A DNA stretch of 21,297 nt from a virus: the IMG/VR virus record IMGVR_UViG_3300022542_001022, positions 1 through 21,297 of that record. One strand, written 5' to 3'. The notes beneath the pieces are model-generated. The model saw only the letters and a list, made by a program, of their open reading frames with translations. It ran no database searches and had not been told where the DNA came from. Of this stretch, positions 11,410 through 16,880 are shown piece after piece (positions within the stretch are counted from its first letter, which is position 1; every line of letters begins with the position of its first letter). Both the position numbers and the translations under genes were made by a program.

Positions 11410-12327
11410 TTACCTACTCAACATTGGGACGTATTGTTCAAGATTTTGAGCAATTTTCTTTAGTTCATATTTTCCTAAGAATCTCATGAACTGGAAATAA
11501 TTGAATGAACCAGGATCGTTCATTTCACTGTCAATAATTTCATCCATCTTACGGCGTATGCATTCAGGCTGCGCCGTAAGATCCATCAATAGTTTATTCT
11601 CAGCATACAAATGACGTACAATTTGTTCCGTTCCATTCTGATCTACCCATGAGTCATTCATTATATTGACACGTTCAAATGGATCTTTATATGCATTGAA
11701 TATCTTAGTTTTGCGGATGCGTGGATATGCACTTCCTACATTATCGCCTGAATCACCACGAAGACATTTTTCAAACATGAATAAATCAGCATCGCCGTTC
11801 CACTCTTCAAGTGTTCTATCTTTTCCAGTAGCGGGATCTACTAAACGAACTCCATCATGACGAAGAAGTTGGATCATATCTTTATCTCCACTAACGATAA
11901 TAATTTCATCGTCTGGATGCTGTTGACAAAAACCAGCCACCAAATCATCAGCTTCTAACCCATCTCCTGCTAAGCATACAATAGTGGAGTGTACGCGAAC
12001 CATTTCTTCAAACTCTTGAAGATGCTCCATAAACGCTTCAAACTTCTCTTTTTCTTTTGGTGTCATACTTTGCCGGCGATTGCCTTTGTAAGGCTTACCA
12101 GAAAGACAAAGGTCACTTCCAGTGTACAATTTTCGCCAACTTGATCTATCAAACGCCATAATAACTTTATGAGGATGAAACAATTTAAAATATTTGTTTA
12201 ATGTTGTTAGTGCTATGTGGTGAGCAAGCCCAGCAGTTGTTTGATCGTCTTGTTGTTTGTTAGCAAAGAACGCTCTGTATAACAAATTACTAATATCAAA
12301 CAGGATATACTTCTTACAAGAGGGCAT
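11410..12327 (-). CDS. rnh: RNase H / 5'-3' exonuclease (T4 Rnh-like, FEN family)
   Basis: The start is placed at 12327, where AGGAG stands at good spacing; the frame extends 13 codons further but without a site. The protein then has 305 residues, the same length as T4 RNase H. Metal-binding acidic residues of the FEN family are visible: D11 ('FDISNLLYRAFF'), D60 ('MAFDRSSWRK'), E125/D127/D128 ('LEADDLV'), D148/D150 ('VSGDKDMIQLL') and D192/D195 ('RGDSGDN'). 'YKGNR' fits the helical-arch substrate site. In T4 this enzyme removes RNA primers and adjacent DNA from lagging-strand fragments. It overlaps the upstream gene by 14 bases and ends three bases from the stop of the convergent holin candidate. 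Confidence 0.93.
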   Translation of the reverse strand: MPSCKKYILFDISNLLYRAFFANKQQDDQTTAGLAHHIALTTLNKYFKLFHPHKVIMAFDRSSWRKLYTGSDLCLSGKPYKGNRRQSMTPKEKEKFEAFMEHLQEFEEMVRVHSTIVCLAGDGLEADDLVAGFCQQHPDDEIIIVSGDKDMIQLLRHDGVRLVDPATGKDRTLEEWNGDADLFMFEKCLRGDSGDNVGSAYPRIRKTKIFNAYKDPFERVNIMNDSWVDQNGTEQIVRHLYAENKLLMDLTAQPECIRRKMDEIIDSEMNDPGSFNYFQFMRFLGKYELKKIAQNLEQYVPMLSR

Positions 12328-12688
12328 TATTAACTCCTTGTGCTTGATTTTCTTGATCTTGTTCAATCAAATCTCTATATAACATAGTTATCCATTTTTG
12401 GACTACTATTTCTTCGTCTACACCTGTAATGCCATTGTCTCGGAGGTAAGTTACGAATGCTTCATTCCAATCCAAATCTACTCTGATACCATTTTTTGGA
12501 TCTTCCAATAAGCCTTTTATTTCAACCCAAGGTTCTTGATCTTTAATTGCCTTAGCTTCTTCAGCAGCTTTATCTTTTATTGCTTTAGCTTCTTCTTCGT
12601 CCTTTTTCTCTTCTGCACGTTCTGCACGTAAATCTTTGAGAATATCTTCACGAATTTCTTCTGCATTTTTCCACCAACGTAACTTCAT
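12314..12688 (-). CDS. Conserved hypothetical protein with charged coiled-coil-like segment
   Basis: The start is placed at 12688 ('MKLRWWKNAEEIREDIL'), with CAGGT upstream; an upstream ATG at 12727 is in frame but lies in the hairpin region. The product has 124 residues. Residues 15-55 are almost all Glu, Lys, Ala, Asp and Arg with a near-duplicated 'EEAKAIKD' element, likely a helix or coiled coil. Residues 55-110 ('EPWVEIKGLLEDPKNGIRVD', 'LDWNEAFVTYLRDNGI') form a compact domain. I recall similar proteins next to replication genes in marine T4-like phages, but no function. It overlaps RNase H by 14 bases, so the two are probably translated together. Confidence 0.75.
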   Translation of the reverse strand: MKLRWWKNAEEIREDILKDLRAERAEEKKDEEEAKAIKDKAAEEAKAIKDQEPWVEIKGLLEDPKNGIRVDLDWNEAFVTYLRDNGITGVDEEIVVQKWITMLYRDLIEQDQENQAQGVNNALL

Positions 12689-12710
12689 AATATTATACCT
12701 GTTGCATTTG

Positions 12711-12726
12711 TGATTGTTTCCAATCA
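12711..12726 (-). other. RNA hairpin with GAAA tetraloop between clamp gene and the 124-residue gene
   Basis: On the minus strand TGATTG-GAAA-CAATCA forms a perfect 6-bp stem capped by a GNRA tetraloop, 37 bases after the clamp stop and 22 bases before the next ATG. No U-run follows, so it is not a normal terminator. It could protect the clamp mRNA end or affect translation of the next gene; the function is inferred. Confidence 0.5.
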
Positions 12727-12763
12727 TTTTCCCAAATTGTTAACTTGCGGGACATTTAATTCA

Positions 12764-13468
12764 TTAAACTTGGGGAAGAACGAATAAATTTAAACCTTGA
12801 ACTGAAATACTTAATATACCTTTCTGTCCAATAGTAAACGTACCTTCGGAGTTTTGTTTAAACAAAGGAAGTAATGTCTTAATAGGATAACGGTGAGCAA
12901 AGTTAGTGTCACTATCATCGGTTAAATTTTCAACCTTATTTGTAAACGTATATGAGAATATATCACTGTTTATATCAACGAGTTCAAAAGAGACGCCTTT
13001 CTTATTACTAATAATAGTAACAATACCAGCATTCATTGCAGATTGTCCTTTTTGAAGCATAACAACAGCTTCTGCATTTAAAGGAACACGATATTTTAAA
13101 GTATCATTTATTTGTCGTGGTGCTTGAATAGTTGATGGATTGGCACAACGATAATCAATCTTGACACCTTTCGCTTTCATTGTCAAAGACCGAGCGTATT
13201 CACTACCATCTGGAGTTTCTGCTTCTATTGTAAAGTCTTCTTGTGTTTTTGCAATATCTAACCGTGACGTAAATACACTGATACGATTTAGTCCTATTGA
13301 ACCAAATGACATATCAGGGACGTTTTCGTCTTGGAATAATACTACAGTTTTATCATCATCTATTGCACGCACAAGGTTAGGTTCAATGATAATATTATCA
13401 ATATCAACCATTTGAGCTGCCCTAACTACTTTTTGTATATATGCGATTTCGTCTGTACTAATTTTCAT
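12764..13468 (-). CDS. 45: DNA polymerase sliding clamp (gp45-like)
   Basis: The protein has 234 residues, against about 228 for T4 gp45. Family signatures include 'GSIGLNRISVFTSRLDI', 'KIDYRCANPSTIQAPRQIND' and the closing beta segment 'GILSISVQGLNLFVLP'. In T4 the clamp is a homotrimeric ring that tethers DNA polymerase and also serves as a mobile activator of late transcription through gp33/gp55. The ribosome site is AAGGAT. A sigma70-type promoter lies just upstream, with its -35 inside the end of the DUF488 gene, so the clamp can be made independently of the polymerase operon. No loader genes (gp44/62) are in the window. Confidence 0.93.
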   Translation of the reverse strand: MKISTDEIAYIQKVVRAAQMVDIDNIIIEPNLVRAIDDDKTVVLFQDENVPDMSFGSIGLNRISVFTSRLDIAKTQEDFTIEAETPDGSEYARSLTMKAKGVKIDYRCANPSTIQAPRQINDTLKYRVPLNAEAVVMLQKGQSAMNAGIVTIISNKKGVSFELVDINSDIFSYTFTNKVENLTDDSDTNFAHRYPIKTLLPLFKQNSEGTFTIGQKGILSISVQGLNLFVLPQV

Positions 13469-13491: not shown

Positions 13492-13520
13492 ATTATACTA
13501 GAAATTAAGCAAAGAATCAA
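13492..13520 (-). promoter_or_regulatory. Sigma70-type early promoter for the clamp gene
   Basis: On the minus strand: TTGATT (13515-13520), 17-base spacer, TATAAT (13492-13497), 23 bases before the clamp ATG. The -10 is a perfect consensus and the -35 matches four of six. The -35 and spacer overlap the last codons of the DUF488 gene. The same elements and spacing occur at 18537-18565. Confidence 0.7.
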
Positions 13521-13932
13521 CAACAACTTTCTGACCCTCTGCCTTTTCTTCTTTTTCGTTTTTCCATTCGGGTATTATAAACCCTGTTTCTATCTTAATC
13601 CATTCAGCAAGTATCCTACGATGACAGAACTCATTTGGACTTTCGTAGCAGAGTAATATACTGTTTTCAGGCAACAAATAATATATCATCTCTGCTGATA
13701 ACTTACCTGAAGACCGCCTACTCTTAATTAGATTAATATAATTTACTGTATATTCCTTTTCTGTCATTAACCCTTTACGAATAGAATCAACCATTGACCA
13801 TTCGGGTGCTAATAATGGAAGCCTACAGCCTGCAAACCATTGAGGGGAAGAATAACTAATGCCCAATGCGTCTGGGTTACCTCCACAACGAGCATAGTTA
13901 GAAGTTTGTATATTTTTGGGGTTCATATTCAT
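13498..13932 (-). CDS. DUF488-family protein with polymerase-like clamp-binding C-terminal tail
   Basis: The protein has 144 residues. The DUF488 pattern is visible: 'TSNYARCGGNPDALGISYSS' at the N-terminus, 'RLPLLAPEW', the aromatic 'YTVNYINLI', and the signature 'LLCYESPNEFCHRRILAEW' (C95, C103, H104, R105). DUF488 proteins are widespread and poorly characterised. After a charged linker of about 15 residues (123-136) the chain ends in VVVDSLLNF, which matches the end of the DNA polymerase in this window (MVIESLLDF) residue by residue or by conservative change. In T4/RB69 the polymerase end docks in the clamp, so this protein likely binds the clamp, whose gene is next. It starts at an ATGA overlap with the upstream gene. 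The catalytic role, if any, is unknown. Confidence 0.8.
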   Translation of the reverse strand: MNMNPKNIQTSNYARCGGNPDALGISYSSPQWFAGCRLPLLAPEWSMVDSIRKGLMTEKEYTVNYINLIKSRRSSGKLSAEMIYYLLPENSILLCYESPNEFCHRRILAEWIKIETGFIIPEWKNEKEEKAEGQKVVVDSLLNF

Positions 13933-14234
13933 TGTTGAACGTAACCCAATCCTTTTCTGATTAAACTTTCAATTCCGTAGTGCATTGCTTCAGTGTATAT
14001 CCATCTTTCATCTGCAGACATTTGACTCCAACCATCTTTAAGTTTGGGATGAGTTAACATAAATTGGTTTATCATATCACCTGCCACTTGATATCCATCC
14101 CATTCATCTTTAGTAAGTTCTTTATAAAGATTACCAAACTCCGACAAGTTAAACATACCATCATCATATAATTGGGTTATCGCTTGTTTATTTCCATCAA
14201 CACTACAATCCATTTCTGATAGTTTTTTATTCAT
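13929..14234 (-). CDS. Hypothetical protein between polymerase and DUF488 genes
   Basis: The protein has 101 residues, mostly helical-looking and soluble ('LYKELTKDEWDGYQVAGDMI', 'SADERWIYTEAMHYGIESLI'). I do not recognise a family. AGGAG precedes the ATG 12 bases after the polymerase stop, and its TGA overlaps the DUF488 start (ATGA). It is therefore part of the dsbA-groES-polymerase transcript and translationally coupled to the DUF488 gene. A replication-related or accessory role is suggested only by position. Confidence 0.75.
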   Translation of the reverse strand: MNKKLSEMDCSVDGNKQAITQLYDDGMFNLSEFGNLYKELTKDEWDGYQVAGDMINQFMLTHPKLKDGWSQMSADERWIYTEAMHYGIESLIRKGLGYVQQ

Positions 14235-14246
14235 AATATTCTCCTA

Positions 14247-16880
14247 TTAAAAATCCAATAATGATTCTATTACCATTCCTTGTTTTGAAGGAACGTCTTT
14301 ACCAATCGCTTTTATGATATTACCAAGAGGTTTATCAACTAATCGTGTAATATGAGCAGGCATATCAATTTCAAAGTTATCATAAAACCACTGTGGAACG
14401 ACTTCCATATCAGTAGGCAATGCAATGCTTTTGAAACGTCCAACCTTCTGCTTAATATAAAATACTTTAATCTTCATCCCTGAAGTGATTGGCATACTTT
14501 CTTTATCGTTATGTTTTTCAAGATTTAAGTTATAATGTATACTGGCTGCAACATGACCTGGTAATCTTTGGCCTGCTCCATATATTTCTAAATCTTTCGT
14601 ATACTTTTCTACGTTCTGTACACCTTTGGGTAAACCAATAGTCATCACATCATCAGCATTTTCTAATTCTTCTTTATAATCAACAATATCTTGAGCAATT
14701 ATATCCCATGATTCATCTTTAAGGAACCGTTCCACAAATGAATTAAGTCTTTTAGAAACTGCAGGTGGTAATGTTGTTTTCTTAGTATCAACACCCATGA
14801 CTTTTAACTTATCAACTTTTTCACCTTCATTATCAATAACATGAAGAATGTATCGTTTTTTATCAACAAAGATTCCACGATCAGAAACAATTTCACGACC
14901 AGTTAAAATGATATCATCAAAACCTGGATTACATAAGAAAGTTTCTCTCATAAATTCTGGGAATGAATCACTTATTACTTCTCCAACTCTATCAGCAATT
15001 AATACAGCTTGCTCAGCATTCTCTGCATGTGTTACAAAATACGTACTATCAGTATCACCATATGCGACTGACCATTTGTCAGAATATCCATGGTGAATTT
15101 TTCCATCATGTGTCTTCTTAGTATCTAAATCAACATATGTACCATCTTTCAGTTTGTATTTCTGTAAGTCAGGTACAACATATTCACCATCTAATAATTC
15201 ACAAGCCTTAGCACATTGATGAACAAGAATCATACGACCAGTACCAGTTGTACTTTCTCCCATTCTTAAATCATAAAAACGGAAATATGCATTATTTAAT
15301 GCACCATATAAACTATTCAGTTTAATCTTATATACATATTGTAATCTATCATAATATGCTGCTTTTTGTTTGTCTCCATCATTCAACGCCTGTCCTTTTA
15401 GCTTTTGGAATTCTTTACGTGTAGAGTACCATTCTTCAAGAATAGCTGGGATAATACCTTTTTTCTCTTGAGTGAATACAGTACCATACCCACTAACAGC
15501 ACAAACGTCATCCTTTAACACTCCTCTCCACTCATCAGCAGTTTTCTTTAATATATCACCATTCTCATATTCAAGTGTAAGTTCAACAAAACTACCTTTT
15601 GCAATTTCTTCTGATGCCCTTACTGTTTCAACAAACTGACCTATTAATGTTTCAGGACTGATGTTAATAGAACGGATAGCAGATGGATATAGGGAGTTAA
15701 TATCAACAGAGCCTATGTTTTCATGTAATCCTACTTGTGGGATAAGTACGAACGCACCTTGAATAGATCCAGTCGTATCAGGTACATGAACATTGGGAAC
15801 TCGTAAGTTTAAATCATGCCAACAGTAATTATTGATAGCAAGTTCAGCAAGTTTTAATGTACCACCAACGTGTTTAAACAAGCCACCAGAAATATGATAC
15901 ATTTCATTTGCAAGTGCAACATAACCAAGACGGTTTTCAAATCCTACAAGAACTTCCGTATCTCGTATATTGTACCGAACAAAATATTGAAAGTCTTTAC
16001 GATATAAGTCATGAAGAGTTCCTTCATAATGTAGTTTAGGTAACTCTGGCAGAACGTCAAGTGCAACAGATTCTAATTTATAAGATGGTCTTTCTGCCAT
16101 CTCATATTTTTTGAATAGTTCAAGATAATCAACACTTTCACGACCTTGTAAATCAATAGTCTCTTGTATGTTTCCAAACTTTTCAACTTCACGGTATCTA
16201 GGATTTCCAGCACCTGGAAAAGATAACATTCTAAAATATTTCTTACCAAGAACAATTTCAATTCTTTTAGCAATATACGGCATATCAAAGAAGTCACTAT
16301 TCCAACCACATAACACATCACAATCTTCTATTTCAGCAATGATGTAGAGTAATAATTCTTTTTCATTTTTACAGAATACAATTTCTGCTAAGTCATTAAG
16401 TTCTTGATCAAATTGTTTTGGATCTGTCCAAGAATCATCAGGTGGAACACAATACACAACAGTACGGTTTTCGTGTTGATGATGCATTGCAATAGAGTTG
16501 ATTGGAGCGTATGGATTAGCAACAGAACTGAAACCAAGTTCCTTGTCGTAATCAACTTCAATATCCAGAAAGCAAACATTAAGGATAGGAGCAGGTTTCC
16601 CATAATAGTAGTCAGAAAGAATACGTATTTCAGGAGCGATATCAGATTCAAATAACTCCAACCCATAGCTTTCCATGTCTGAACGAGCAGCATTAAATTC
16701 TTTCGCAGTTCTGAAGTCGTGACGAGTTAATTTATCACCGAATATGCTGACATCTTCTCCTTCTTCGTCTTTAGTAAAGAAGAAAAATGGAGCTGGATAA
16801 GTTTTCTCTACTCTACCATCAGGTCCACGCTCCCATACTATTACATCATCACCTTTTCTTTTGGCGGATATGTAACTCAA
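14247..16880 (-). CDS. 43: Family B DNA polymerase (gp43-like) with 3'-5' exonuclease
   Basis: The protein has 877 residues, close to T4 gp43 (898). Exonuclease motifs: ExoI 'FLDIEVDYD' (D106/E108), ExoII 'GWNSDFFDMPYIAKR' (D196), ExoIII 'YNIRDTEVL' (Y303/D307). Polymerase motifs: A 'VDINSLYPSAIR' (D393), B 'KIKLNSLYGALNNAYFRFYD' (518-537), C 'YGDTDSTYF' (D609/D611). All catalytic residues are present and there is no intein or split. The chain ends in 'MVIESLLDF', the expected clamp-docking tail. The start is an unusual TTG overlapping the groES stop (TTGA), with GGAG seven bases upstream inside groES; no ATG occurs in frame before the conserved region. Translation is therefore likely coupled to groES. 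Confidence 0.97.
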   Translation of the reverse strand: MSYISAKRKGDDVIVWERGPDGRVEKTYPAPFFFFTKDEEGEDVSIFGDKLTRHDFRTAKEFNAARSDMESYGLELFESDIAPEIRILSDYYYGKPAPILNVCFLDIEVDYDKELGFSSVANPYAPINSIAMHHQHENRTVVYCVPPDDSWTDPKQFDQELNDLAEIVFCKNEKELLLYIIAEIEDCDVLCGWNSDFFDMPYIAKRIEIVLGKKYFRMLSFPGAGNPRYREVEKFGNIQETIDLQGRESVDYLELFKKYEMAERPSYKLESVALDVLPELPKLHYEGTLHDLYRKDFQYFVRYNIRDTEVLVGFENRLGYVALANEMYHISGGLFKHVGGTLKLAELAINNYCWHDLNLRVPNVHVPDTTGSIQGAFVLIPQVGLHENIGSVDINSLYPSAIRSINISPETLIGQFVETVRASEEIAKGSFVELTLEYENGDILKKTADEWRGVLKDDVCAVSGYGTVFTQEKKGIIPAILEEWYSTRKEFQKLKGQALNDGDKQKAAYYDRLQYVYKIKLNSLYGALNNAYFRFYDLRMGESTTGTGRMILVHQCAKACELLDGEYVVPDLQKYKLKDGTYVDLDTKKTHDGKIHHGYSDKWSVAYGDTDSTYFVTHAENAEQAVLIADRVGEVISDSFPEFMRETFLCNPGFDDIILTGREIVSDRGIFVDKKRYILHVIDNEGEKVDKLKVMGVDTKKTTLPPAVSKRLNSFVERFLKDESWDIIAQDIVDYKEELENADDVMTIGLPKGVQNVEKYTKDLEIYGAGQRLPGHVAASIHYNLNLEKHNDKESMPITSGMKIKVFYIKQKVGRFKSIALPTDMEVVPQWFYDNFEIDMPAHITRLVDKPLGNIIKAIGKDVPSKQGMVIESLLDF

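Follow-up and report, generated by a model that had tools for sequence, protein, structure and literature searches.

In phage T4, the DNA polymerase gp43 places its SLDFLF sequence in a pocket of the sliding clamp gp45 (PMC12746103), and the C-termini of gp43, gp55 and gp33 are interchangeable (PMC2988020). In bacteria, the consensus for ligands of the beta clamp is QL(S/D)LF (PMC11139829). None of 25 papers that mention DUF488 connects this protein family with a clamp in its title or abstract. In this work, we analyzed a 21.3-kb fragment of the genome of a T4-like and probably jumbo phage (IMG/VR record IMGVR_UViG_3300022542_001022, positions 1 to 21,297, hereafter the window), in which a gene for a DUF488 protein of the DUF488-N3a type directly precedes the clamp gene. 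Sequence comparisons make it very probable that DUF488-N3a proteins are clients of the sliding clamp, with a tail matched to the clamp available to them.

The genes concerned lie on the minus strand of the window and encode a family B, gp43-like DNA polymerase (14247-16880; PF00136, PF03104, phrog_262), the DUF488-N3a protein of 144 amino acids (13498-13932) and a gp45-like sliding clamp (12764-13468). The original prediction held that the DUF488 protein ends in the same clamp-docking peptide as the polymerase and represents a new clamp client. As claimed, the polymerase ends in MVIESLLDF (14250-14276) and the DUF488 protein in VVVDSLLNF (13501-13527), with the clamp as the next gene, and the two tails differ in all eight codons compared; stop codon included, 16 of 27 nucleotides are identical. 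A C-terminal hydrophobic and acidic peptide resembling the tail of the phage's own polymerase is what would be expected of a gp45-type client. A scoring matrix built from polymerase tails only gave scores of 12-19 to 13 distinct DUF488 tails. Moreover, among the 591 gene-like open reading frames (ORFs) of a 363-kb contig from a relative (G021), nothing but the polymerase (21.4) and the DUF488 protein (19.0) scored above 4.1, and therefore the likeness of the two tails is beyond chance.

Searches of IMG/VR with the polymerase, the clamp and the DUF488 protein recovered about 35 related loci (named below with the prefix L). DUF488 sits between polymerase and clamp in most of the loci that possess it, and the tail was kept in 14 of 17 divergent homologues from related jumbo phages, the tailed ones sharing about 34-51% protein identity with the window DUF488. 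Mean pairwise identity fell to 0.21 in the linker, compared with 0.47 for the core and 0.53 for the tail. The linker, previously described as charged and flexible, is indeed charged and variable, and its flexibility is probable from the sequence. Tail variants include VVDSIIEF, MVDDLLVF, VADDVLEF, IVDELLKF, VVDSILDF, IVDSILDF, PVDDLLQF, IVDELFEF, LVDSIFDF, LINDLLEF, VVDNLFDF and VVDNLLQF; the final phenylalanine is present in all 14 tails, with TTT and TTC equally used. Position alone does not create such a tail, since other relatives have peptidase S11 genes at this site, between polymerase and clamp, and these genes lack it. These peptidase genes encode D-Ala-D-Ala carboxypeptidases and are found in L017 (8845-9705), L074 (5016-5948) and L013 (6940-7986).

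The strongest support for docking comes from a switch to beta-clamp motifs in other DUF488 lineages, because the type of motif seems to follow the type of clamp. DUF488 relatives from Bacteroidota-type phages and from bacteria often end in a bacterial beta-clamp motif, QLSLF being the commonest. A terminal pentapeptide of the Q..LF type was found in 28 of 66 distinct short DUF488 tails, compared with 7 of 701 control ORFs. After clustering at 60% identity, C-termini of the form Qxx[LM][FL] were present in 13 of 61 DUF488 clusters and 7 of 932 control ORFs (P = 2.7e-12), and the strict published motif in 5 and 3 of them, respectively (P = 3.6e-5). Profile searches of bacterial genomes for DUF488 relatives returned few members. 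Across DUF488 lineages the motif appears to follow the clamp, assuming that Bacteroidota-type phages use the beta clamp of their hosts. Together with the 14 retained tails and the near-uniqueness of the tail in a relative's genome, this switch strongly supports the idea of a new clamp client.

The window clamp itself gave only a weak match by sequence (phrog_223, E = 6e-4). The AlphaFold model of its homologue in L080 has the PCNA/gp45 fold (T4 gp45, 1czd; template modelling (TM) score 0.69 by target length), and according to this homologue model the window phage encodes a clamp of gp45 fold. Sequence searches of the PDB revealed neither a DUF488 relative with a solved structure nor a true relative of the clamp. 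When the DUF488 protein and clamp of L080 were modelled as a read-through fusion, AlphaFold merged tail and linker into one unbroken helix, and no docking was seen; the positive control, the polymerase tail and clamp of L050, was likewise undocked, with a predicted local distance difference test (pLDDT) value of about 62 for the tail, so that the fusions speak neither for nor against docking. Undocked fusions would also be in keeping with a tail that binds another replication or transcription partner instead of the clamp pocket. Nevertheless, we regard such a partner as very unlikely, given that clamps are indicated both by the resemblance to the polymerase tails and by the QL[SD]LF-type ends that relatives have instead.

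The tail region also carries a signal at the DNA level. In the window, a predicted -35 box lies inside the V-D codons of the tail and a predicted -10 box immediately behind the DUF488 stop codon (TTGATT-17-TATAAT, 13492-13520, minus strand). Most related loci have GTTGAC or GTTGAT among the last codons and TATAAT or TATACT right after the stop, at a 17-base spacing. Together, the codons of the tail, the stop codon and the six bases behind it are predicted to make up a consensus promoter of the sigma70 type (TTGACA-N17-TATAAT) ahead of the clamp gene; as in promoters of this type, -35 and -10 hexamers with a spacer of 16-18 nucleotides are kept in the relatives. Thirteen of 421 ORFs had both TTGA[CT] 23 nucleotides before the end of the stop codon and TATANT after it, and all of them directly precede the clamp gene (11 DUF488 genes and the polymerase genes of L050 and L071). 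Weaker versions were found in L064 and L079, where the polymerase gene also precedes the clamp, so that the promoter is in register in three or four loci of this arrangement. Additionally, the V-D pair is encoded by GTTGAC in 10 of the 11 in-register DUF488 tails, compared with 17% of V-D pairs elsewhere (P = 2e-7, kinship ignored). Polymerase tails followed by DUF488 show neither this codon choice nor a -10 box, the window polymerase among those without the box. A constraint on the DNA of the DUF488 tail codons is hence likely. The overlapping promoter would explain part of the conservation of the tail DNA and of the V-D residues.

One could go further and regard the tail as mainly promoter DNA, its peptide being a by-product or a fossil of a polymerase 3' end and the DUF488 protein not docking at all. 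The in-register TTGAC/T-N17-TATAxT elements of the 11 DUF488 loci and their V-D codon choice fit this explanation. So do L051 and L005 (90% identity), in which DUF488 was cut to about its last 22 codons, tail and promoter being retained before the clamp (L005 8635-8756; G002:C1 11282-11347, in the polymerase/clamp interval), and L042, in which a promoter-like site is present and the tail is lost. The promoter, however, would constrain V-D and the nucleotides behind the stop codon but leave free the L-L-x-F that falls in its spacer, where amino acids are conserved and codons vary: the phenylalanine is invariant with both of its codons, and L, I, V and F alternate. Moreover, the tail persists in L077 and L039, where the promoter has shifted downstream, and in L040, where DUF488 lies 913 nucleotides from the clamp and has no overlapping promoter, and beta-clamp motifs occur on DUF488 relatives in other contexts. 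A tail that serves mainly as promoter DNA is hence unlikely in our judgment. Since either element can be retained in the absence of the other, peptide and promoter both appear to be under selection.

The differing codons had also been read as excluding a recent DNA duplication. Such a reading holds within the window genome, but relatives indicate a wider history. In L050 and L006 (75% polymerase identity), which have no DUF488, the polymerase 3' end matches the window DUF488 tail at 23 of 27 nucleotides and the clamp leader downstream at 11 of 14, compared with only 18 of 27 and 6 of 14 for the window polymerase tail. In the window DUF488 and in the L051 remnant, the DNA encoding the tail agrees with the L050 polymerase 3' end at 23-24 of 27 nucleotides, compared with 16-19 of 27 for the window polymerase. 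The DUF488 tail and the L050/L006 polymerase 3' end likely share a DNA origin. For the L050 state we infer, as the simplest reading of a stretch that is short and promoter-constrained, a deletion that fused the polymerase to the DUF488 tail, and tail plus promoter may have been exchanged between polymerase and DUF488 genes. The same nearness to the L050 polymerase is what passive capture would leave behind, that is, a DUF488 gene inserted beside the clamp gene that acquired a polymerase 3' end with tail and promoter, and hence clamp binding with little selected function. Passive capture seems improbable to us, as the tail has survived deep divergence, in L040 also at a distance from the clamp, and as other lineages of DUF488 repeatedly show clamp motifs of a different type.

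As for the protein itself, the window DUF488 matches PF22751 (DUF488-N3a) with 31 bits against a curated cut-off of 27 (E = 3.5e-7), and six relatives reach 31.4-41.5 bits. The match spans residues 37-113 of 144, so that the clamp tail is not part of the matched domain; NCBIfam holds no model for DUF488 of the window clade. The alignment of 17 homologues revealed a conserved motif, LLCYESPNEFCHR (residues 93-105; 13618-13656, minus strand), in which L94, C95, Y96, E97, F102, C103, H104 and R105 are invariant. In Bacteroidota-type phages, DUF488 has neighbours of the GNAT-phage-like, DAM-like-phage (PF22556, which adjoins DUF488), amidoligase, dehydrogenase and ThiF families. The DUF488 flanks in L168-L223, with DAM-like, GNAT-like, amidoligase, Octopine_DH and ThiF genes, are possibly a DNA modification cluster. 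On Methanoperedens plasmids, DUF488 occurs near RadC, a methylase-bearing protein and a helicase (PMC9674854). The neighbour genes suggest that DUF488 works on DNA at the fork, and lend weak support to a DNA-modification role for the protein of the window clade.

We propose that a folded DUF488 domain is followed by a variable charged linker and a C-terminal peptide, which would dock in the phage-clamp pocket used by the polymerase tail. Docking would tether the protein to DNA at the replication fork or in its wake. There the domain would probably act on freshly synthesized DNA, perhaps to modify or repair it, a guess taken from neighbour genes in other phages. Clamp tethering would be a trait of the whole DUF488 clade, the tail fitting whichever clamp is present, a phage gp45-type or a bacterial beta clamp, and in the window phage clade the tail codons would double as the predicted sigma70-type promoter of the clamp gene. 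We hold this scheme as a whole with considerable confidence.

Several observations weigh against it. Three of the 17 homologues lack an intact C-terminal tail while their polymerases are tailed: L042 lost it, L043 reads beyond the tail position, and in L044 the gene was relocated behind the clamp and its product ends in INDIFGVK. The DUF488 tail can be lost, then, and this is the combination that the original prediction had named as speaking against itself; the covariation between polymerase and DUF488 tails that it had looked for within genomes was not obvious when judged by eye. Many bacterial-type DUF488 proteins are without a Q..LF end. Taken as a whole, the window has no excess of promoter-like sites over shuffled sequences. 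A search for PF22556 in the window clade gave no match, and control genomes gave none either. Finally, the phage sequences are related, so that counts are not fully independent and simple P values are weakened. On balance, the original prediction was strongly supported in its core, the clamp client; the overlap with a predicted promoter and the possible exchange of tail DNA had escaped it.

More tentatively, and with rather less than even confidence, DUF488-N3a proteins may be widespread clamp-tethered enzymes acting on new DNA, with a docking motif for each clamp and, in the jumbo clade, a movable cassette of tail plus promoter exchanged between polymerase and DUF488. Under the proposed scheme, a family known from bacteria, plasmids and phages would have its place at the replication fork. 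The same bases would also serve as a regulatory signal in DNA and encode the docking motif of a protein, the predicted promoter of the clamp lying within codons of the clamp's predicted ligand.

Based on the polymerase, the nearest named relatives of the window phage are Xanthomonas phage XacN1 and Stenotrophomonas phages CM1 and RAS14 (44-45% identity). The minus-strand gene set comprises groES, the DNA polymerase, orf101, DUF488, the clamp, orf137 and a 5'-3' exonuclease. The small protein orf101 (13929-14234), an ORF call between polymerase and DUF488, had no match when Pfam and PHROG-type families were searched. Behind the clamp lies a conserved gene (12314-12727; phrog_13349) with homologues in the same place in most loci; many of these homologues have an acidic-aromatic C-terminus, [ST][DE][FY]E, which may be a further short motif. 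A protein among the structural genes (1352-2299) has zinc-finger-like matches to DUF4379 and DUF723. Among the relatives, the polymerases of L071 (2074-5970) and L068 (820-4617) contain intein splicing and LAGLIDADG domains, and those of L041 (1103-4998) and L077 (1-4338) are in two ORFs about 1 kb apart, perhaps separated by an intron or some other insertion. In a more distant group, the polymerase ends in NKLLDWG or similar and the exonuclease in LLDF or LVDF (L018 10454-11509, L021 10063-11082, L023 10356-11378); this exonuclease may be a clamp client too.

Compared with the gp45 clients gp43, gp55 and gp33 of T4/RB69, the window phage likewise has a clamp of gp45 fold, as modelled, but the carrier of the tail is a DUF488-N3a protein and not a polymerase or late-transcription factor, its clamp docking is predicted, and its tail codons overlap the predicted clamp-gene promoter. 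Like the members of PF22751, the Active DUF488-N3 subclade, the window protein is above the cut-off and has the LLCYE...FCHR motif; it differs in the clamp tail, which extends beyond the matched region. Bacterial beta-clamp clients such as Pol II, Pol IV and many transposases carry a C-terminal QL(S/D)LF (PMC11139829, PMC4549789), and Bacteroidota-type DUF488 relatives similarly end in QLSLF, QASLF, QGSLF, QKSLF or QLDLF, although the strict motif has an aliphatic second residue, which is absent from many of them.
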